This document shows positions 11,780 through 43,003 of a stretch of 47,713 nucleotides of DNA, piece after piece. Location: positions 1 through 47,713 of the IMG/VR virus record IMGVR_UViG_3300044699_000057. One strand, written 5' to 3'. A program made the position numbers and the translations under genes. The notes under the pieces were generated by a model. The model was not told the origin of the DNA. It did no database searches and saw only the letters and a list, made by a program, of their open reading frames with translations. Position 1 is the first letter of the stretch; the number at the start of each line of letters is the position of its first letter. The DNA is from a virus.

Positions 11780-11815
11780 GGGGGCCGTCCTTTGGTCTCG
11801 TCTTACCGTCCTCAT

Positions 11816-11845
11816 AGTATGAGACTTATCAGGGTGGGGTGTCAA
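11816..11845 (-). promoter_or_regulatory. early promoter-like site (shared type)
   Basis: Minus strand TTGACA (11845-11840), 18-base spacer, CATACT (11821-11816). The last spacer bases and -10 read ATAAGTCTCATACT, identical to the site at 22093-22122 and close to that at 4118. It follows directly on a hairpin that ends the previous unit. Confidence 0.65.
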
Positions 11846-11868
11846 GGGGGCCGACCGAACGGCCCCCT
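11845..11868 (-). terminator. 9-bp hairpin between units
   Basis: AGGGGGCCG, loop TTCGGT, CGGCCCCCT on the minus strand, six bases after the stop at 11875, followed by TTGACA, which is the -35 of the next promoter. A compact terminator-promoter junction. Confidence 0.65.
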
Positions 11869-11874
11869 CGACCA

Positions 11875-12336
11875 CTAGCCCTCAGCCGGCGCGTCCGCCT
11901 CCGTGTCGAGCGGCGAATCGACGGTCGCAAGGAGCACCGCCGTCGGGCACGGGTACGAGTTCCCGCACTCCAAACACGAGCCGAGCACGTTCTGATGCTT
12001 CGACATGACCTGCCGCGCCATCTGCCCGCGGAAGGTTGCGCGCCGCTCCCACGAGTCGGCGGTCTCCTTCCACTGCTCGACACGCAGACGCTCGGCAGCA
12101 AGCTCGCGCTGTAGCCGCTCCACCTCGCCAGCCGCCCATCGGCTATCCGGTCGCTCCTCACGCTCGACCCGGTACACGAAGTCCGCGTGGGCGGCCGCGT
12201 CCTGCGCCCACGCTTCACTGATCGCGTTGACGATGATCCGGCTACGCCGGTCCGCGTGGTCAGCCATTGCCCGCCAGTGTTCGGCGATGGCCCGGGCGTT
12301 CTCCTCCGGGCTCGGGGTGGTGTCCGAGTACGTCAC
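11875..12336 (-). CDS. coiled-coil protein with C-terminal cysteines, 153 aa
   Basis: GTG at 12336 overlaps the preceding stop. Intact. After a short acidic start (SPEENARAIAEHWRAM) comes a long helix with heptad spacing (EVERLQRELAAERLRVEQW, KETADSWERRATFRGQMA), then VLGSCLECGNSYPCPTAVLL, a Cys-x2-Cys-x4-Cys cluster. Probably an oligomeric, metal-binding phage protein. Last gene of the unit starting near 15.0 kb. Confidence 0.75.
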   Translation of the reverse strand: MTYSDTTPSPEENARAIAEHWRAMADHADRRSRIIVNAISEAWAQDAAAHADFVYRVEREERPDSRWAAGEVERLQRELAAERLRVEQWKETADSWERRATFRGQMARQVMSKHQNVLGSCLECGNSYPCPTAVLLATVDSPLDTEADAPAEG

Positions 12337-12614
12337 TTCGGTTCCTCCGTGTACGCGCCGGGGTCGGTGTCGTCCCAGCACAGCCAGTAGCCGGTGGGGT
12401 CGGTGCCCCAGTGGATGTGTCCGCCGTGGGGGTGCTGCTCGCACACCGCGGGTTGGTGAACGGTGATGCCGTCGCGGTAGCGGTGCGGGCAGCGGGCGGC
12501 GGCTGCGGCCCGGCGGCGTGCCCGCCAGTCCGCGGCGATCGCCACCGAGAGAGCGGCGACCATGACGCAGGAGATGCCGGTGCCGGCTACGGCGTCAGCT
12601 GTCGACGCGTCCAT
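12333..12614 (-). CDS. membrane-anchored CxGHxH-motif protein, 93 aa
   Basis: ATG at 12614, TGA at 12333 overlapping the next GTG. Residues 3-28 (ASTADAVAGTGISCVMVAAL, SVAIAA) form a single N-terminal membrane helix, followed by an Arg-rich stretch that would be cytoplasmic. Then AVCEQHPHGGHIHWGTDPTG and YWLCWD give the Cys...Gly-His-x-His...Trp motif seen in the 4.2-5.6 kb series, with two additional cysteines. Probably binds a metal at the membrane. Confidence 0.7.
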   Translation of the reverse strand: MDASTADAVAGTGISCVMVAALSVAIAADWRARRRAAAAARCPHRYRDGITVHQPAVCEQHPHGGHIHWGTDPTGYWLCWDDTDPGAYTEEPK

Positions 12615-13112
12615 CTGCGATCGCCCCCGCCCTGCGTGCGATGCCCCGGGCGAGCGAGTCAGGGAGGGACACTCCCTCGGTGGCGTGCGTCTCGATCAGG
12701 AGCTGATTGAACTCATCGAGGTGAGCGGACGCGAGACGCTTGCACGCCGCGTCGTAGGCGCGCTCACGCTTCTGGTCGACGGTGGTGCCGGCCCGGATGG
12801 CGGCGCGCTGTTCCTCGCGGTTCTCTTCCTTGTGCTGGGCGATGACGGCCCGTGCTTCGACGATTCGGCCGCGGACTCGGCGGAGCTTCGCGAGCGCCCG
12901 GCCCTGCCACTCGTTGTCACCCTGCCTGGCGTCGACCTGGGAGCGAATGTCGCTCGCGATCAACTGGAGCTCGAACAGCCAGCGCCCGCGTTGAGGCGGT
13001 GCCGCAGGGCCTTGACCTCCCAGTCATGGGCACGGTTCCTGACGTCGGCCTCAACGACTTTCCGGAACTGTTCCTCCGACTTGCCCGCCATGAGGTGTTC
13101 GGGGCCGTTCAC
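12595..13112 (-). CDS. long helical protein, about 172 aa (frameshifted)
   Basis: GTG at 13112 overlaps the upstream stop. Reads MAGKSEEQFRKVVEADVRNR, AHDWEVKALRHRLNAG, then across an indel at about 12988 WLFELQLIASDIRSQVDARQ and on to a charged coiled coil (LRRVRGRIVEARAVIAQHKE, QKRERAYDAACKRLASAHLD) ending GAIADGRVDS. The C-terminal 120 codons are clean. It overlaps the next gene by 20 bases. Function unknown. Confidence 0.65.
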
Positions 13113-13348
13113 GGGGTCGCCTCCGGCGCGAACCTGAGGGCGGCGGCGTACATGGCGACGGACCGCAGTCCGGCCATGAGGCGGCCGACGTCGTCCTGTG
13201 AGAGAACGATTTCGGCATCGGCCATTTCGCCGTCCCGGAACGCGGCAACGGTGACGGTGATGCTGTCGTCACTTCGGTCTGTGCTGGCCGGTGTGATGCT
13301 GATCATGTCTTCGCTCGGGCCGGTCGTCATGGTGAATTCCATGCTCAT
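13109..13348 (-). CDS. hypothetical protein, 79 aa
   Basis: ATG at 13348 (MSMEFTMTTG), seven bases after GAGG within GGAGCGAGGCACACCG; TGA at 13109 overlaps the next GTG. Reads DSITVTVAAFRDGEMADAEI, VLSQDDVGRLMAGLRSVAMY. A beta-alpha protein of the type that is common and uncharacterised in actinophages. Intact. Confidence 0.7.
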   Translation of the reverse strand: MSMEFTMTTGPSEDMISITPASTDRSDDSITVTVAAFRDGEMADAEIVLSQDDVGRLMAGLRSVAMYAAALRFAPEATP

Positions 13349-13629
13349 CGGTGTGCCTCGCTCCAGTGCCGGTTGGCTGCCTCGACCATGACGCCGAGAC
13401 TCGACGCGTCGCACGTGATGCGGTAGTCACCGCAGCGGTGGCAGATGATGCCTCCGCCGTACGGTCCGAAGTCGTGGAGGCGCGGTGCGTACGCCGAAGC
13501 GCGGATCACGACCGCCTCCGGTACGCCGTCACGGCTCACGTACACGGGGCCCCGGGTGCGGTGCGACGGCAAGCCGCCAATGATCTCGTCCGCCCGTGCG
13601 GCGAACTCCGTAATGTCCATCTGCGTCAC
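13345..13629 (-). CDS. Phd/YefM-like antitoxin domain with zinc finger, 94 aa
   Basis: GTG at 13629 overlaps the previous stop. VTQMDITEFAARADEIIGGL followed by GPVYVSRDGVPEAVVIRASA matches the Phd/YefM N-terminal fold (a helix, then a strand in which Asp-Gly-Val-Pro-Glu-Ala-Val-Val replaces the usual Asn-Gly-x-Pro-x-Ala-Val). The usual toxin-wrapping tail is replaced by GIICHRCGDYRITCDASSLG and RHWSEAHR, a Cys-x2-Cys...Cys...His-x4-His finger. No toxin gene lies beside it. DNA binding is likely; antitoxin activity is inference. Confidence 0.65.
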   Translation of the reverse strand: MTQMDITEFAARADEIIGGLPSHRTRGPVYVSRDGVPEAVVIRASAYAPRLHDFGPYGGGIICHRCGDYRITCDASSLGVMVEAANRHWSEAHR

Positions 13630-13766
13630 TGGTCGGTCCTCCTGCCGGCGCACTCGGCGCGGTGCTGGTTGACGAGTCGGATGTACTCGCGGTCGGTGTC
13701 GGAGCGGATCACGGTGCCGCACGCGCCGCAGACGAACAGCGCGTGGTCCCACCCCTGCGCGTTCAC
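13626..13766 (-). CDS. small C2HC zinc-finger protein, 46 aa
   Basis: GTG at 13766 and TGA at 13626 both overlap neighbouring genes. FVCGACGTVIRSDTDREYIR, LVNQHRAECAGRRTDQ gives Cys-x2-Cys...His-x3-Cys, a C2HC finger similar to those of many Streptomyces phage proteins. Intact despite its size. Confidence 0.65.
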   Translation of the reverse strand: MNAQGWDHALFVCGACGTVIRSDTDREYIRLVNQHRAECAGRRTDQ

Positions 13767-13997
13767 TGCGCGACCCGGGGGAGGACGTCGATGTGGTCAA
13801 GGTCGATGCCACCCGAGTAGCCGTCGACCAGGACGACCGGGGGTGCCGTGTCCGAGAGGCCACGCCTTGCTCCGGGTGAAGGTTTCGAGGCGGGTGCATC
13901 CGAGCGAATCGGCGGCCGGGTGCTCGGGGCGGAACCCCGGGTAAGCGATGACGGGGGTACCGATCGGGTAGAGGCTGTTCCACCGCTCAACGGTCAC
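13763..13997 (-). CDS. small beta-barrel-like protein, about 78 aa (frameshifted)
   Basis: GTG at 13997 overlaps the preceding stop. YPIGTPVIAYPGFRPE, CTRLETFTRSKAW, then across an indel at about 13865 LSDTAPPVVLVDGYSGGI, DLDHIDVLPRVAQ. The Pro-x-Gly-Thr-Pro-Val opening, the Thr-Arg-Ser-x-Ala-Trp middle and the closing Val-Asp-Gly-x-Gly-Gly-Ile are a combination I have seen in small SH3-like actinophage proteins. Function unknown. Confidence 0.6.
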
Positions 13998-14197
13998 TGG
14001 AGGTTCCTCTCGGACTGGTCGGCGGCCGCAACCATGGCAGCGGTGATGGCGGGGATCCATGCGACGGGCACGCGGACGGCGGTGGCCACTCCGCTCCCGG
14101 TCTCGATGATCCGCATGATGATCGACGGGTAGCGTTCCTCATCCGTCGATGCGTGAATGGACAGCTGATCGCCGTCCTCGTCGGTGTACTCGATCAC
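13994..14197 (-). CDS. hypothetical protein, 67 aa
   Basis: GTG at 14197 overlaps the preceding stop; TGA at 13994 overlaps the next GTG. Reads MIEYTDEDGDQLSIHAST, IIMRIIETGSGVATAVRVPV, WIPAITAAMVAAADQS: three strands and a helix. Intact. Not recognised. Confidence 0.7.
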   Translation of the reverse strand: MIEYTDEDGDQLSIHASTDEERYPSIIMRIIETGSGVATAVRVPVAWIPAITAAMVAAADQSERNLQ

Positions 14198-14385
14198 GGT
14201 CGGGCCTTCCGCTTGAGGGAGCGGAGCTCCGCGCTGTCGGCCTTGAGACGCTCGTAGTCCTCGATCTTGACGAGCACGGCGACGGGGTCGCGGAAGTCCG
14301 TGATCGTGGTGGGCGTGCCGTTACGGACGGCGGTCAGGATGGCGCGCAGGTTCGTGCGCAGGGTGTTGATACCGACGGTTTCCAT
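14194..14385 (-). CDS. Phd/YefM-like antitoxin, 63 aa
   Basis: ATG at 14385 preceded by AGGACACC. METVGINTLRTNLRAILTAV, RNGTPTTITDFRDPVAVLVK, IEDYERLKADSAEL is a complete Phd/YefM N-terminal domain: helix-turn with the Leu-Arg-x-Asn-Leu motif, the strand with Arg-Asp-Pro-Val-Ala-Val-Leu, and the Tyr-Glu-Arg-Leu helix. The usual acidic C-terminal toxin-binding tail is replaced by a short basic end (LKRKARP). There is no toxin gene on either side. Could repress its own unit or neutralise a host toxin. Confidence 0.75.
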   Translation of the reverse strand: METVGINTLRTNLRAILTAVRNGTPTTITDFRDPVAVLVKIEDYERLKADSAELRSLKRKARP

Positions 14386-14447
14386 GGTGTCCTATCTCGA
14401 TTTGGCACGGGGCCGTGCGCCCCGGGCCGGTGGTGCTGGGCGCCGCG

Positions 14448-14945
14448 TCAGTTGCTGCGCTGTGGGCCGGCGTTCCCGCGTCCGAACCATCGGAGCACCG
14501 GGATTACGTCGCACTTTTCGATGCGCTCGCCACTCTCGCGGAGCTCATTCATCCTGCGCCGGATGGCTTCAACCGTGGGGTGGCCTGCGTTCTCGTTGAG
14601 GAGCGACCTGACCTTTGCCTTCTGTGCGTCGGTCGCCCGGCCGCCACCGTTGAATCCGAAGTAACCAACCTCGCCATTCGGCATGTAGACCGGGCGGAGA
14701 AGTTCCTCGTCCGTGTCTTCCTGCTCGTACCGGTCGTCCCCGAAGACGTCGTCACAGTCGTATGCGGCGCTGTCCTGGTTGAGGTTGGTGGTGGGTGCGG
14801 CCGGTGCTGCGGCGCAGCTGACGCACTCGCCGCGGCGCTGGCTGTAGTGCGAGACGTGGTGGCCGCAGGCCAGAATCTGAGTCATCCACCGGCGGTGGTT
14901 CTGGGTCCACTCGTTGACCCGGTCCTGGAGGTTGGTGCCTGTCAT
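14448..14945 (-). CDS. zinc-finger protein, 165 aa
   Basis: First gene after the promoter-like site at 14983-15012; ATG at 14945 with AAAGGAGACACC upstream. Near the N-terminus LACGHHVSHYSQRRGECVSC is a Cys-x2-His...Cys-x2-Cys finger. An acidic linker is followed by RPVYMPNGEVGYFGFNGG and a helical C-terminal domain (RATDAQKAKVRSLLNENAGH, VEAIRRRMNELRESGERI) ending GRGNAGPQRS. The tail resembles a helical module found repeated in actinophage hypothetical proteins. Intact. Confidence 0.75.
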   Translation of the reverse strand: MTGTNLQDRVNEWTQNHRRWMTQILACGHHVSHYSQRRGECVSCAAAPAAPTTNLNQDSAAYDCDDVFGDDRYEQEDTDEELLRPVYMPNGEVGYFGFNGGGRATDAQKAKVRSLLNENAGHPTVEAIRRRMNELRESGERIEKCDVIPVLRWFGRGNAGPQRSN

Positions 14946-14982
14946 GGTGTCTCCTTTGCTGGCCGTCCGTGCCCGTGACACC

Positions 14983-15012
14983 ATGATGCATCACACTTAT
15001 GACACTTGTCAA
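14983..15012 (-). promoter_or_regulatory. early promoter-like site with doubled AAGTGT element
   Basis: Minus strand TTGACA (15012-15007), 18-base spacer, CATCAT (14988-14983). The spacer holds two copies of the element: ACAAGTGTCAT and ATAAGTGTGAT. The shared motif with 4118, 11816 and 22093, plus a good ribosome binding site 30 bases downstream, supports transcription from here. Confidence 0.6.
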
Positions 15013-15206
15013 GCCTCCGGGTTCACTGCCCGCCACCCCGTCGGCCCATCACACGACACCCACAGCAACCGGTAGCCATGCCCCAACCCTGACGTGCACA
15101 CGAACCGCGCCGTATTCCTCTGCGGAGGCAGACGCGTCGGCACGCTGCACCCACATGTGAGCCTCACCCGGTAGTCGACGTTCGACGCCCTACGCCGCTT
15201 GTCCAT
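15009..15206 (-). CDS. small CGC/CxGH protein, 65 aa
   Basis: ATG at 15206 preceded by GGAGTGGCG. Reads ASNVDYRVRLTCGCSVPTRL, NTARFVCTSGLGHGYRLLWV, SCDGPTGWRAVNPEA. CGC plus VCTSGLGHGY...W...C suggests a single metal site related to the Cys-Gly-His motif seen elsewhere. Its stop lies inside the promoter-like site at 14983-15012, so the upstream transcript ends or passes through there. Confidence 0.65.
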   Translation of the reverse strand: MDKRRRASNVDYRVRLTCGCSVPTRLPPQRNTARFVCTSGLGHGYRLLWVSCDGPTGWRAVNPEA

Positions 15207-15258
15207 CGCCACTCCATGTTGAACGTGTCCATGACGAGCCGAGCCCCTGTGCGCCCCG

Positions 15259-15387
15259 CTACGCCCCCAACCCGGAGCCCCGCGCCCAACGGGCCGCGCA
15301 GCCCGTGACAGCCGCCACAGCCCCGCCAGCAACAGCGACGAGCGGCACACCCACCGGTAAGCTCACAGCCGCCCGACAGAACCTCAC
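15259..15387 (-). CDS. possible small membrane peptide, 42 aa
   Basis: GTG at 15387, TAG at 15259. Reads VRFCRAAVSLPVGVPLVAVA, GGAVAAVTGCAARWARG, with one plausible membrane helix and good third-position GC. No clear ribosome binding site, and the start lies inside the hairpin at 15372-15406. An overlapping GTG frame from 15391 is Cys-rich and equally open. I keep this as a weak candidate; the stretch may be non-coding. Confidence 0.3.
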   Translation of the reverse strand: MRFCRAAVSLPVGVPLVAVAGGAVAAVTGCAARWARGSGLGA

Positions 15388-15406
15388 TCACCGTGGTTCT
15401 GTCGGG
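15372..15406 (-). terminator. perfect 12-bp hairpin after the replication gene
   Basis: CCCGACAGAACC, 11-base loop, GGTTCTGTCGGG, beginning 12 bases after the stop of the gene at 15419. The minus strand has no U tail; the plus strand has CCTTT. Probably ends the leaderless unit that starts at 16404. Confidence 0.6.
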
Positions 15407-15418
15407 CCTTTGCTGTGC

Positions 15419-16210
15419 TCAGGCGTTCTCCCGCAGGCAGGACACGCACATCACCCGATCCGACCGGTCCGCCATCCGCGATCCACATCGGGGACACCGC
15501 CGCACTCCGCACCCCCATCTCTCCTCCCCGGTGGAATCGATCTTTGTCGCCGAGCCAGCACCCCCGGGTACCTCAGCTTGACGACAGACCTCAGCCCCGT
15601 TCATGGAAGAGAACATGGAAACCCCTGGAATGGTGGGGGGTGTGTCCCCCCATCCCCTAGGGGGTGTGTCCCCCCAGGGGGGTAGGGGGTGTGTCCCCCC
15701 AGGTGCCTTCGGCCCGGACTCTCCGGATGGATCATCGACCGTGGGGGATACACCCCCTGGTCTCCATCGGTGACCGTGGTGTCCGGGCCCCCCCTGGTTC
15801 CACGGCGCAGCGTGCCCGCGCTTGCGCTTCGACGCGTCGAGCACAGCGACCGCGGCAGCCCAGTCCGGGAACGGGGACACCAGGAGCGTGTACAGGACGG
15901 CCGCCCCGTTCGGTGAGTCACCAACCCGGTCAGCCACCCCAGCCGCTATCGCTGCGTTCACGTACCGGCGAGCGTCCTTGATGTCGACCCGCGCCCCGGT
16001 AGCGATCGCCCGGATCGTGATCAGCTTGCCCTTGTTGAACCGCAACAGACCCGCCGGATCGGCCGCTGACGCCATGGCATACAGGGTCGTGATGAACCCG
16101 GACGGCAGGCCTTTCGGCATCTCCTGCGTCCACTTCCAGAAGAGCGCGTTGCGGAATCGGTGAGGCACACTCCCGCCTGCGGGCGGGTCGTCGATCGGTT
16201 CGTCTGCCAC
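15419..16210 (-). CDS. replication initiator-like protein, winged-helix N-terminus and zinc ribbon C-terminus
   Basis: GTG at 16210 chosen for GGGGAG eight bases upstream. 263 residues, intact. Residues 18-115 (PHRFRNALFWKWTQEMPKGL, ITTLYAMASAADPAGLLRFN, ITIRAIATGARVDIKDARRY, VNAAIAAGVADRV) form a winged-helix domain of the type found in phage replication proteins. Residues 145-200 are low-complexity (HPLPPWGDTPPRGWGDTPP), encoded by iteron-like DNA repeats. The end RRCPRCGSRMADRSDRVMC, VSCLREN is a zinc ribbon. Position after a Phd-like gene and the repeats within the gene recall lambda O, whose gene contains the origin. Replication role is inferred. Confidence 0.65.
   Translation of the reverse strand: MADEPIDDPPAGGSVPHRFRNALFWKWTQEMPKGLPSGFITTLYAMASAADPAGLLRFNKGKLITIRAIATGARVDIKDARRYVNAAIAAGVADRVGDSPNGAAVLYTLLVSPFPDWAAAVAVLDASKRKRGHAAPWNQGGPGHHGHRWRPGGVSPTVDDPSGESGPKAPGGTHPLPPWGDTPPRGWGDTPPTIPGVSMFSSMNGAEVCRQAEVPGGAGSATKIDSTGEERWGCGVRRCPRCGSRMADRSDRVMCVSCLRENA
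15635..15757. repeat. iteron-like repeats inside the replication gene (possible origin)
   Basis: Four near-palindromic GGGGGTGTGTCCCCC-type units at 15635-15651, 15660-15675, 15685-15700 and, slightly changed (GGGGGATACACCCCC), 15743-15757. The first three are spaced 25 bases apart and separated by short runs including CCCCTAG and AGGGGGGTA. Such a regular array within a replication gene is the classical layout for initiator binding sites. Confidence 0.6.
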
Positions 16211-16215
16211 GTGGC

Positions 16216-16404
16216 CTACTCCCCGTCCGACGCGTCGGCCGCCATCAGCTCCCGGGCCCGGTCGAACCACTCAACGGGGACGACCACCGCCGCGGGCCGG
16301 TTGTAGTGGGTGAGTACCGTCGCCTCACCGTGCTCACGCGCACGGGTGATCACGTGCGTCAGTTCCGTTCGAGCCTGCCGGCTCTGCATCTCGTTGATCA
16401 GCAT
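16216..16404 (-). CDS. Phd/YefM-like antitoxin, 62 aa
   Basis: MLINEMQSRQARTELTHVIT, RAREHGEATVLTHYNRPAAV, VVPVEWFDRARELMAADAS. The helix, the strand with Asn-Arg-Pro-Ala-Ala-Val-Val-Val and the final helix match the Phd/YefM DNA-binding half; the toxin-binding tail is short. The ATG at 16404 lies six bases after a -10 box, so it appears leaderless. It is followed after five bases by the replication gene, so self-repression would also control replication. No toxin gene is present. Confidence 0.75.
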   Translation of the reverse strand: MLINEMQSRQARTELTHVITRAREHGEATVLTHYNRPAAVVVPVEWFDRARELMAADASDGE

Positions 16405-16410
16405 GCCCCG

Positions 16411-16439
16411 ACCCTACGTGTCTAGGTAAACAATGTCCA
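16411..16439 (-). promoter_or_regulatory. promoter for a leaderless transcript
   Basis: Minus strand TGGACA (16439-16434), 17-base spacer, TAGGGT (16416-16411), then six bases CGGGGC before the ATG at 16404. Transcription starting about seven bases after the -10 would begin on the A of the ATG. No ribosome binding site fits in the gap. Leaderless messages are frequent in actinobacteria. Confidence 0.65.
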
Positions 16440-16553
16440 GATGGGGGCCCACATTACCGGCGGGTAGCCAGCGCGGACCGTGTCCACGGACGGTGTCCGG
16501 GAAACGCCGGCAGGCCCGGCGTGCCGAAGCACACCGGGCCCACCACACGCCAC

Positions 16554-16999
16554 CTACCGCCGCTTACCCGCCTCCCACGTAGGCACCGGGAACCGCGCCC
16601 GCATCTCCCCGTACCACCCTCCAACGGGCCGCCATTCGCCATCCGCAGCCACCTCATCGGCGACCGCGACGACAGCAACACCACCGGATCCGCGACCCGC
16701 ACCACCCGCGCCGACAGGCACCGCGCCGACAGCCCCGGCACGAAACAGTCCGGGTCAGGCTCGACCGGGCCGACCGGCTCCACCTCATACAGCGCGCCGT
16801 TCGGGAACAACGCCGCGTACGCCGCCGCCACCTGCCGATCCGACGTCACATACACCCGGTCCCGGCGCGTCGTCTCCGCGTCCCCACCCAGCTCCGCGAC
16901 CCGCCCCAACGTAGCCGGCTCCACCCCCGTCACAGCCGACGGAAGAACCAACGCGCCCGGCGCCAGACCCGGCACCCCGCCATGCCACAGCCGGCTCAC
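16554..16999 (-). CDS. Arr-like ADP-ribosyltransferase (frameshifted near the end)
   Basis: About 149 residues; ATG at 16999 overlaps the preceding stop. MSRLWHGGVPGLAPGALVLP opens with His-Gly, followed by RDRVYVTSDRQVAAAYAALF and NGALYEVEPVGPVEPDPDCF. This is the order of the rifamycin ADP-ribosyltransferase family: His in a [YW]HG box, Tyr in a VYVT strand, and an acidic residue after the VEPxGP turn. An indel at about 16622 shifts the frame before RARFPVPTWEAGKRR and TAG at 16554. Family assignment rests on these motifs; the target (antibiotic, nucleic acid or host protein) is unknown. Confidence 0.6.
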
Positions 17000-17424
17000 A
17001 GGGCCACACTCTTCTCAGCCATGGCGGCAGTCCACAGCACCCCTGCCAGACACTCCGCCATCCGTGTACCGCGCTCATCCGGCGCAGCGAGGAACGCCTC
17101 GAACTCCGACCCGAACAGGGCGTGAGCCATCGGCTCGTCCTGGTTCATGAACGCGTTCGTGAACCTCATCGCCCACGCTTTCGGGCTGTTGTCACCGTCG
17201 TCGATCATTGGCACCCACACGATGCGCGGGTGAGACGCGAACGGGCCGGCCGTCGAACGCATCGCACGAACGGCGATCATCGCCGCAGCCTTGAGGAACT
17301 CATACGCCTGACCGCCCGTCGTCTGCGCCGTGATCCACCCGGCCATGAGGTCAGCCGCCCTGTCGTGATCGTTCCGGGCCATGGCGTCGACAGCAGCCCG
17401 GGCCCTCACCTGCGGAGTGATCAC
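16996..17424 (-). CDS. hypothetical protein, 142 aa, paralogue of next gene
   Basis: ATG at 17424 overlaps the upstream stop; TGA at 16996 overlaps the next ATG. Helical: ARAAVDAMARNDHDRAADLM, GWITAQTTGGQAYEFLKAAA, then MRFTNAFMNQDEPMAHALFG, SEFEAFLAAPDERGTRMAEC. The segment with Asn-Gln-Asp-Glu-Pro-Met-x-x-Ala-Leu-Phe aligns with Asn-Glu-Asp-Glu-Pro-Met-x-x-Ala-Leu-Phe in the gene at 17421, so the two are a tandem duplication. Intact. Function unknown. Confidence 0.75.
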   Translation of the reverse strand: MITPQVRARAAVDAMARNDHDRAADLMAGWITAQTTGGQAYEFLKAAAMIAVRAMRSTAGPFASHPRIVWVPMIDDGDNSPKAWAMRFTNAFMNQDEPMAHALFGSEFEAFLAAPDERGTRMAECLAGVLWTAAMAEKSVAL

Positions 17425-17879
17425 GCCCGGCCCCGCATCTCCGCGTCAACCTCGGCAGCCGCAGCCACCTCCGTCAACGCCCGCAGCGCGAACAGAAGCG
17501 GCACCGCGTCCTGGTCCTCGTACGCCGTCAGGAGCGGCAGGAACAGAGCCTCGATCATCGGCTCATCCTCGTTCAGCACAGCCGCGAGGTACCGGCCGGA
17601 GAACACCGCCTCCGGCGCGTCTCCCTCGTCGAACACCGGCGGAACCCACGGCTCACCGTCCATCACGAACCCCTGCCGGCGCCGCGCACCCTCCGCGCCG
17701 ATGTCGCCGAGTGCCCGGGCCAGCCGGCTCGCCGCGTGCGGCACGCACTGATACGCGCCGAAGAACCCAACCATCCGGTCGTTGACGCCCTGGTGATCGA
17801 GGACCTTCGAGAAGTCGACCATCACCCGGGCTGCCTGCCTGGCGTGCAACTCGAACACCCTGTTAGCGAACTTTCCCAC
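17421..17879 (-). CDS. hypothetical protein, 152 aa, paralogue of previous gene
   Basis: GTG at 17879 with GAGAGG upstream. Begins VGKFANRVFELHARQAARVM, contains FGAYQCVPHAASRLARALGD and VFSGRYLAAVLNEDEPMIEA, LFLPLLTAYEDQDAVPLLFA. It shares the Asp-Glu-Pro-Met core and helical layout with the gene at 16996. Intact. Both genes sit between the DNA-binding protein at 18064 and the ADP-ribosyltransferase. Function unknown. Confidence 0.75.
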   Translation of the reverse strand: MGKFANRVFELHARQAARVMVDFSKVLDHQGVNDRMVGFFGAYQCVPHAASRLARALGDIGAEGARRRQGFVMDGEPWVPPVFDEGDAPEAVFSGRYLAAVLNEDEPMIEALFLPLLTAYEDQDAVPLLFALRALTEVAAAAEVDAEMRGRA

Positions 17880-18065
17880 TGTCGTGCCTCTCTGTGAACC
17901 TGCAAGATCTCTTATGCTCAGCCGCCACCTCCGCAGCGAACCGAGCCACAGCGGCCGCACCCGCCGCCGCATCACTGAACCCACACCGGCAAGTGAAGTC
18001 CGCAGACCGGCTCGGTGAACCGGTCACCGAACCGCACATGCAGCCCCCACAAGCCGGCTGGCATC
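17863..18065 (-). CDS. small Cys-rich zinc-finger protein, about 66 aa (frameshifted)
   Basis: ATG at 18065 overlaps the upstream stop (TGATG). One extra G at about 18058 shifts MPA into ACGGCMCGSVTGSPSRSADF, TCRCGFSDAAAGAAAVARFA, AEHKRSCRFTERHDSGKVR. The pattern CGGCMC...CRC...His...Cys suits one zinc site. TAA at 17863, overlapping the next gene by 17 bases. Confidence 0.55.
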
Positions 18066-41157: not shown

Positions 41158-43003
41158 CAGTCCACCACCGCCCCCTCCTGCTCGAACAGGCGCAGCCTGG
41201 CACGCGCCGAAGCCATCGCCTTGTCCGCCTCCACCGGTCCGTCCTCCGGGGCCGGCTCGACAGCGAACGCGTTCGCGAGCATCCCCCGCACGCACGACTC
41301 CGCCACCTCATACGGCGGCAGGTCCACGCCACCGACCGTGACACTGATCGTCGGCCACGCCACCCCCGCCGCCTCGAACTCCGCCCGCAGGTCCGCACCG
41401 ACCGGCGCCTGAGCGAACGCAGGCTCGGACGGCGGCGAGGGGAAGGAATCTTCGGCTCCGGGTCGGCGGACGCGAGGAGCGGCCGCAGCTCCTCCGCCAG
41501 CTCGGCGAGGTACTTCTCCCGCGACGGGCGACGCGGCGGCGCAGCACACGCCACGAGGGAGTACACGTGGCCATCCGCCACCAGCGACCGGGCCCGCACC
41601 ACGGGAACCCGGGCGTGTTCACCGCGTGGAACGCGATCGCCTCCAGGTTCCCGCCGATGTACCGCCAGTCACCCGACAGAGGGGACCGGCGCAGCGCCCG
41701 GATCTGCCCGGGCGTGGCTTCCGGGATGATCGCTCCCGCCACCCAGATACCGAACTGGTCCTCACCGGCGGTCACCGTGGCCACCGCGGTGCCGGCATCG
41801 TCGTAGTGCTCGGCGGCGGCGGCGTAGCCGAGACGCTCATCGGCGTGCCCGCCGCCGACAGTGAGGTTGCCCGTCGCGTACACGCCCTCATCGGTGAGGG
41901 TGGCGCCGACCATGAAGTTGGCATAGCCGGTGCGGGACCGGGGCGGCTTCTGCCCCGGGATGCCGACGTGGATCTGCTCCCAGTCAGCGGCGTGCCCGAA
42001 CACCCGGCCGTCGTCCGTGATCGTGAGCGGGGTGAGCTCAGTCAGCTGCGGGTCAGCGAACCACGCCGCCGGGGGAACCTCCGGGGCGACGACGGACGCC
42101 ACGAGGGAGAACGGCGCCTCGATCGTGTCGTCACCCATCGCCTTAGCGATCCTGCCGTACAGCCCCGACACGACCTTCTTAAGGGCGTCCTGGTCCGCGG
42201 CCGGAATGTCAGCCCCGCCACGCGCCCCGTTCAGGACACCGGCGACCGCGTACACGCCGCGCGGAATGAGACGCAGCTCACCGTCAACGACGTCCGCTAC
42301 GCCGAGCTTGTAGGCGCCCACGGTCTCCGGGTCAGCGTCAGGGTCCTGCCACAGGAACGCCCGCGCGTACTTGTCCCACGCCGAAGCGGGCGCGTCCGCC
42401 TGGTCGATGCCGGCCCACGCGGCGACGCGCTTCGCTGCGCCCGGGCCATCCCACTTCGGGTCATTGTCGGCAACCGGGACGGTGTCCCATCCACTGCGCC
42501 GCACACCTGCCGCTGTCAGTCCCACGCTGTCACCCTCTCCGATCCGCAGGTCGGGGAACGCCTGCACTGCGACGAGGGTGACCTTCGAGAACTCGAAGTC
42601 GGTGTACACGCACACCTCGCGGTACGGCGTACCTTCCTCGTACATGCCGTCGACGTAGTCACCCTCGCCTCCGCCGAGCGGCCCGCCATTCGATCATGCA
42701 CCCGGCGGACTGCATCGACGGGTACACGACACCGCTGTCTACGAGGGACCGGGCGCCGGACACCTCGGGGATCGTCGCCGCGTCGAGCCACTCGCCGGTT
42801 GCCCACACGGTGCCGTCGCCGAGCACCTCGACCCGGTCGATCGTGGCGACCGTCACGGCCTTGTCGTGTCCCTCGTCGGTGTACTTCTGCCAGTCCATCG
42901 GCAGGGGCAGGCCGCGGACCGTGAACCCCTCGTCGGACACGATTCCGCCCGTCGGACGTCTCGGCATTGAGCCGGCCGACCGGCCGCTCCACCTGTCAGC
43001 CAT
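41157..43003 (-). CDS. capsid maturation protease (frameshifted)
   Basis: ATG at 43003 after AAGGGTG. About 615 residues. N-terminal part EGFTVRGLPLPMDWQKYTDE, VATIDRVEVLGDGTVWATGE, GVVYPSMQSAGCMIEW; across an indel at about 42665 EVCVYTDFEFSKVTLVAVQA; middle AAKRVAAWAGIDQADAPASA; then WEQIHVGIPGQKPPRSRTGY, ERLGYAAAAEHYDDAGTAVA, GIWVAGAIIPEATPGQIRAL, RRSPLSGDWRYIGGNLEAIA. This last block is the hallmark of actinophage prohead proteases. Indels at about 41600 and 41435 precede a helical tail. It would cleave the capsid N-terminus. Confidence 0.8.

Follow-up and report, generated by a model that had tools for sequence, protein, structure and literature searches.

A candidate replication origin carried within a putative initiator gene of temperate-type actinophages

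Results

Repeats in the linker DNA of a putative initiator gene

We analyzed a viral record of 47,713 bp (the window) together with its relatives, and our main finding is that the replication origin of a temperate-type actinophage very probably lies inside its own initiator gene, in a lambda O-like manner and with the mechanism that we propose in the Discussion. We observed the sites, their conservation at the DNA level, their phasing, their position relative to an unstable block and the covariation of residue 76 of the protein with a base in the sites. The gene and the parts of its product are as follows.

15419..16210, minus strand: putative replication initiator gene, 263 aa, GTG start (ORF and translation; start by alignment with relatives)
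15821..16210, minus strand: N-terminal winged-helix domain, residues ~1-130 (AF2, Foldseek, weak profile matches)
15941..15982, minus strand: predicted recognition helix, residues 77-90 (DSSP on the AF2 model)
15983..15985, minus strand: codon of residue 76 (Asp in the window), candidate specificity determinant (covariation with a half-site base, tree test)
15506..15820, minus strand: linker, residues ~131-235, predicted to be disordered and encoded by the candidate origin DNA
15422..15505, minus strand: C-terminal zinc ribbon (CPRC...CVSC), residues ~236-260 (sequence, sub-threshold Pfam matches, AF2)

The likely GTG start at 16210 matches the start position in the relatives, while the mechanical ORF extends to 16270. 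AF2 predicted the winged-helix N-domain (residues 15-127) from 53 sequences with a mean pLDDT of 85.6 and a pTM of 0.77. In the full-length AF2 model, the linker had a pLDDT of ~45, that is, disordered, and the short zinc ribbon was moderately predicted, with a pLDDT of 77-80 across most of its length. The window protein had no significant match in Pfam, PHROG or NCBIfam; its zinc-ribbon matches in Pfam were sub-threshold, and a sequence search of solved structures gave only weak matches (E 0.025-0.04). Foldseek comparison of the N-domain with solved structures was also weak (best E ~0.02) and returned mostly MarR-type winged helices and regulators, with the plasmid Rep-DNA complex 5kbj at rank 22. 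When family members were searched, the Pfam profiles HTH_36, HTH_29 and FaeA matched the N-domain weakly, and PHROG 391 ('replication initiation O-like') gave weak matches in 16 of 25 members (best E 0.0014, outside the confident range) and none for the window protein. The C-terminal region varies within the family and has one zinc ribbon, two Cys-rich motifs or neither, with an alternative helical-looking tail (examples are L019:5403-6347, L066:3431-4450, L095 and L098).

A Phd/YefM antitoxin-like ORF (16216-16404) with no obvious toxin alongside ends 5 bases before the initiator start, and a second ORF (14194-14385) appeared Phd-like by eye. Just past the initiator stop codon, at 15371-15407, is a perfect 13-bp hairpin (GCCCGACAGAACC / GGTTCTGTCGGGC) whose minus strand is without a clear T-run. 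Farther away, portal, protease and structural family matches to a portal-like ORF (41308-42645) cover only part of their length, and its reading frame may be broken or fused.

The linker DNA contains four iterons that are 15-bp imperfect palindromes.

15743..15757, minus strand: iteron 1, inverted variant (GGGGGATACACCCCC on the plus strand)
15685..15699, minus strand: iteron 2 (GGGGGACACACCCCC in gene orientation)
15660..15674, minus strand: iteron 3 (GGGGGACACACCCCC in gene orientation)
15636..15650, minus strand: iteron 4 (GGGGGACACACCCCC in gene orientation)

On the plus strand, GGGGGTGTGTCCCCC is exact at 15636-15650, 15660-15674 and 15685-15699, and the one-mismatch variant GGGGGTGTATCCCCC occurs on the minus strand at 15743-15757 as an inverted copy. 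The sequence-only reading had described three units at 25-base spacing and one variant; the copies are real, while the spacing is 24 and 25 bp and not uniform, and the variant is inverted. The first gap is 58 bp, and the array has these four sites only. No further copy with at most one mismatch was found elsewhere in the 47.7-kb record, of which the iterons form the top-scoring tandem array. The repeat score of the gene was 17 as against 12 or less in 60 synonymous-codon shuffles of the same gene, so the protein sequence does not by itself give rise to the repeat. AF2 and the sequence bore out the earlier placement of the repeats inside the gene of a winged-helix protein, where they encode the linker between the N-terminal domain and the zinc ribbon.

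The array is kept across relatives at the DNA level

Scans of viral and bacterial contigs identified 71 related genes, of which 55 are nonredundant. Nearly all belong to phages or prophages of Streptomyces, and the hosts named for them were Streptomyces or Actinacidiphila. The gene was present in ~5% of 393 sampled genomes of one Streptomyces-like genus (20 matches) and in 4 of 395 genomes of a class-wide sample, and the plasmid collection had no relative. Two homologues belong to isolated phages, OnionKnight (gp46) and Chymera (gp45), both annotated as hypothetical. These phages are temperate, with an integrase and a repressor, and have no annotated replication protein. We found no paper on this initiator family in the open-access literature searched.

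In all 55 nonredundant genes the linker repeat score was greater than in every one of 60 synonymous-codon shuffles, and each gene carried 4-7 lineage-specific sites at the same place. Another 11 nonredundant full-length relatives, found later, all had arrays. Conservation of the repeat spacing in relatives, which had been put forward as a check on the origin, is seen in 55/55 genes and in 11/11 of the added full-length ones: the spacing is conserved and the sequence has changed. Relatives without repeats would have spoken against an origin, and the only intact one was L082, a solo N-domain; L103 is truncated by a contig end. The L082 gene (L082:1474-1854) is without linker or repeats and has Gly at residue 76; its genome belongs to the order that also includes the Streptomyces matches.

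The registered sites match GTTCGGGnnACnnnnnCCCGAAC in most lineages, with a core that is specific to each gene and common to the copies of that gene, so that all copies within a gene change together. They occupy all three reading frames, successive sites being in different frames. The commonest layout was 25-46-25-24 (21 genes), followed by 36-46-25-24 (11 genes), and without the last two gaps the spacings were 25-27, 35-39, 46-47 and 58 bp. The best-fitting spacing period was 10.5 bp (R 0.945), not 3 bp. Since layouts are common to related genes, the 119 spacings are not independent; the distinct spacing values, compared with distinct values drawn from 22-59, gave a P of ~5e-5.

Codon usage marked out the DNA-level constraint and the block next to the sites.

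15548..15795, minus strand: approximate extent of DNA-level constraint, iterons and 3' block (codon-usage divergence, 54 genes)
15572..15631, minus strand: candidate DNA unwinding element; no other 60 bp of the gene is less stable, and its instability ranks at the 99.8th percentile within the window
15588..15594, minus strand: first CTNAGGT box, CTGAGGT (sequence and family block)
15570..15576, minus strand: second CTNAGGT box, CTGAGGT, 18 bp from the first (sequence and family block)

Leaving aside the start codon and the very N-terminal end, codon choice departed sharply from that of the N-domain only within ~15795-15548. For instance, 52/52 genes with Pro at residue 195 use CCA for it, compared to 3% in the N-domain, and CAA encodes Gln211 in 89%, compared to a background of ~5%. 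Gene-specific sites matched 245 times within the genes and 5 times (4 places) in 546 kb of flank. A dispersed operator or stoperator was rejected, the cognate sites being essentially confined to the gene.

A conserved block with the consensus AaCCCAGGgnntacCcangnnnnnnCCCAnGAnnnGGCtGagGT...CAaCCtcAGGt lies directly 3' of the last site. By nearest-neighbor stability, in 52/52 loci the instability of the 60 bp after the last site reached the 96.7th percentile or higher. The A+T content of the block is up to ~43% as compared to 25% in its surroundings, and its rare codons are conserved. Boxes of the CCA/CCCA type occur in it near +14, +25 and +37, ~11-12 bp apart across the family. We rejected a description of the block as an inverted repeat (CTGAGGT/ACCTCAG) because the repeat is direct in the window, and tandem CTNAGGT fits the window as well as typical relatives. 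The least stable 60-bp DNA of the whole window, at 11786-11850, is outside the initiator gene and unrelated to it.

Matches to the DnaA box TTGTCCACA were at chance level, with none near the array. An inflection of the cumulative GC skew had also been suggested as a check, and this proved uninformative. Near 15.0 kb the window does show an inflection, but as a cumulative maximum and not a minimum, the reverse of the polarity expected from textbook origins; at the initiator genes of OnionKnight and Chymera the skew has no inflection. Given these two results, we dropped GC skew as an origin marker. The skew of the window turns from positive to negative near 15.0 kb (12000-18000) although the predicted genes on both sides are mostly leftward.

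Residue 76 covaries with one base of the half-site

Residue 76 is at the start (N-cap) of the predicted recognition helix. Across 54 genes, its normalized mutual information with the half-site base at position 8 was 0.84, while the next N-domain column reached 0.38. Asp76 occurred with G in 144/146 left and 132/146 right half-sites, Arg76 with C in 104/104 left and 103/104 right half-sites, and Ser or Asn76 with T in 22/30 left and 30/30 right half-sites. Read on the opposite strand, the pairs are Asp-Cyt, Arg-Gua and Ser/Asn-Ade, which agree with the usual residue-base contact preferences. On a tree built without this column, residue 76 changed ~10 times, and 6 of 6 independent pairs of D and non-D on supported branches agreed with the base (P 0.031), or nine when all branches were counted; the exact place of the window in this tree is unsure owing to its long branch. 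The rule held in 10 of the 11 held-out nonredundant full-length relatives. The exceptions to it were L098 (Ser with C) and the mixed left arms of L021 and L049, and hybrid half-sites, which may be intermediates, occur in L021, L033, L034, L049 and L060. The covariation ties the sites to the product of the gene in which they lie.

Discussion

Other readings of the array

The array could be an internal operator unconnected with replication, where a MarR-like repressor bound within the coding sequence acts as a roadblock and so autoregulates its own gene; we regard this as improbable. MarR-family regulators, which bind palindromes as dimers, are indeed the best fold matches, and in each of L012, L016 and L018 a further cognate site precedes the gene by 57-129 bp (L012:5894, L016:5872 and L018:5935). 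From sequence, this single upstream site suggests that these three lineages may be autoregulated. However, a repressor normally binds the promoter, where a close match occurred in only 3 of 54 loci. Nor does an operator account for an array of five phased sites that lies 450-570 bp inside the gene, for the conserved block of low stability beside it, for a linker that is disordered or for the O-like profile matches, and OnionKnight and Chymera are without another annotated initiator. A centromere or another nucleoprotein assembly site (partition, packaging or repressor stoperator) is less probable again. Loci of the parS type also contain phased repeats, yet OnionKnight and Chymera are temperate phages of the integrase/repressor type with no annotated ParB, the sites are not dispersed as stoperators are, and the covariation of residue 76 points to recognition by the gene's own product.

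Two further explanations can be given next to no weight. That the repetition of the DNA is incidental to a low-complexity, Gly/Asp/Pro-rich linker agrees with a linker that is disordered and repetitive, but a single DNA unit is read here in three frames into different peptides, and the synonymous shuffles, which destroyed the signal in all 55 genes, refute it. Repeated insertion of a mobile GC-rich palindrome (REP- or MITE-like) would account for palindromic units in a GC-rich genome and is just as hard to credit, since each phage has a sequence of its own at the same positions, with copies essentially absent elsewhere in the loci, and the units are lineage-specific, phased and confined to the initiator gene.

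Proposed mechanism and significance

The earlier description of the array as a strong candidate for the phage origin is supported by the arrays of the relatives and, more strongly, by the phasing of the sites on the helix, the conserved block of low stability next to them and the covariation of residue 76 with the base. On the other side stand the GC skew, with its wrong polarity in the window and no mark at the genes of the relatives, the sub-threshold sequence homology to known initiators, the exceptions at residue 76, and the small array of the window with its four sites and 58-bp first gap. For an origin embedded in its initiator gene, we infer dimer binding, melting, helicase loading and origin activity. 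The initiator, probably a dimer, would use its winged-helix domain to bind the four palindromes in the DNA of its own linker (five or six in most relatives), and in each GGG-X half-site residue 76 would read the inner base. On the helically phased sites a higher-order complex would assemble and melt the unstable 60 bp next to them. The host DnaB helicase would follow, brought in perhaps by a host loader or by the region of the C-terminal zinc ribbon. The DnaB_C, IstB/DnaC and lambda P families were not found in 24 records including the window, many of which are fragments, and recruitment would therefore rely on host or unrecognized proteins.

We also lean toward the view that these genes make up an unnamed family, common among the prophages of Streptomyces, in which each gene is a self-contained unit of initiator and origin and origin specificity is set largely by residue 76 (Asp, Arg or Ser/Asn), reading one base per half-site. 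All embedded sites would switch with this residue while still encoding the linker, giving dozens of matched and possibly orthogonal origins. The family is named by no current profile library that we searched, and its specificity code is unusually readable. OnionKnight and Chymera thereby gain a named candidate initiator and origin, and with them a large group of Streptomyces phages gains a candidate replication module. Compact GC-rich replicons could also be drawn from the family. With the residue-76 series one can follow how an initiator and its binding sites evolve jointly while sharing one stretch of DNA, and ask whether replicons become compatible within a cell through such changes.

Comparison with known systems

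We compare the present family with lambda O, RepA_N and PLE RepA by likenesses and differences, without implying homology to any of them. In ori-lambda, 19-bp inverted-repeat iterons in the O gene are bound by O dimers, and an adjoining 40-bp A+T-rich block opens on O binding (PMC5043065). Related lambdoid phages likewise have iterons in O, and these were tested with synonymous iteron changes (PMC7466680). The parallel drawn by the sequence-only reading, origin iterons inside the initiator gene, holds in its anatomy: both the window and the family have multiple short palindromic iterons within the initiator coding sequence and a region of low stability directly beside them. The lambda iterons, with spacings of 20, 24 and 23 bp, are also out of frame. 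On the other hand, the sites of the present family are GC-rich and vary with lineage, its C-terminus is a zinc ribbon, and no lambda P-type loader (0/24 records) or DnaC/IstB (0/24) is found nearby. The hhalign comparison with lambda O was negative (probability 0.1), and Phage_rep_O was absent among the Pfam matches listed at E<=0.5 for 53 members.

In pSK41 Rep (RepA_N) and the HTH_36 chimera of pPR9, the Rep boxes lie in the middle of rep and are bound by an N-terminal winged helix (PMC5703833). For RepA_N proteins of the pSK41 type, the linker DNA is the ori, linker-less proteins work in trans, and the C-terminal domain is host-specific (PMC5703833). By the AF2 model and the codon profile, the present family is similar in having a predicted DNA-binding N-domain, a linker that is a candidate for encoding the ori and a separate C-domain. 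It differs in that the pSK41 boxes are based on A+T tracts, and we do not claim a DnaG-interacting C-terminus for it; the RepA_N domain (PF06970) was absent among the Pfam matches listed for 53 members. The PLE satellites of Vibrio cholerae have a RepA whose DNA-binding domain covaries with the iterons and must match them (PMC8263062). There, the ori lies in a separate noncoding region and the covariation is by module swapping between two types, whereas in the present family the gene itself holds the sites, and one residue follows one base through many lineages.
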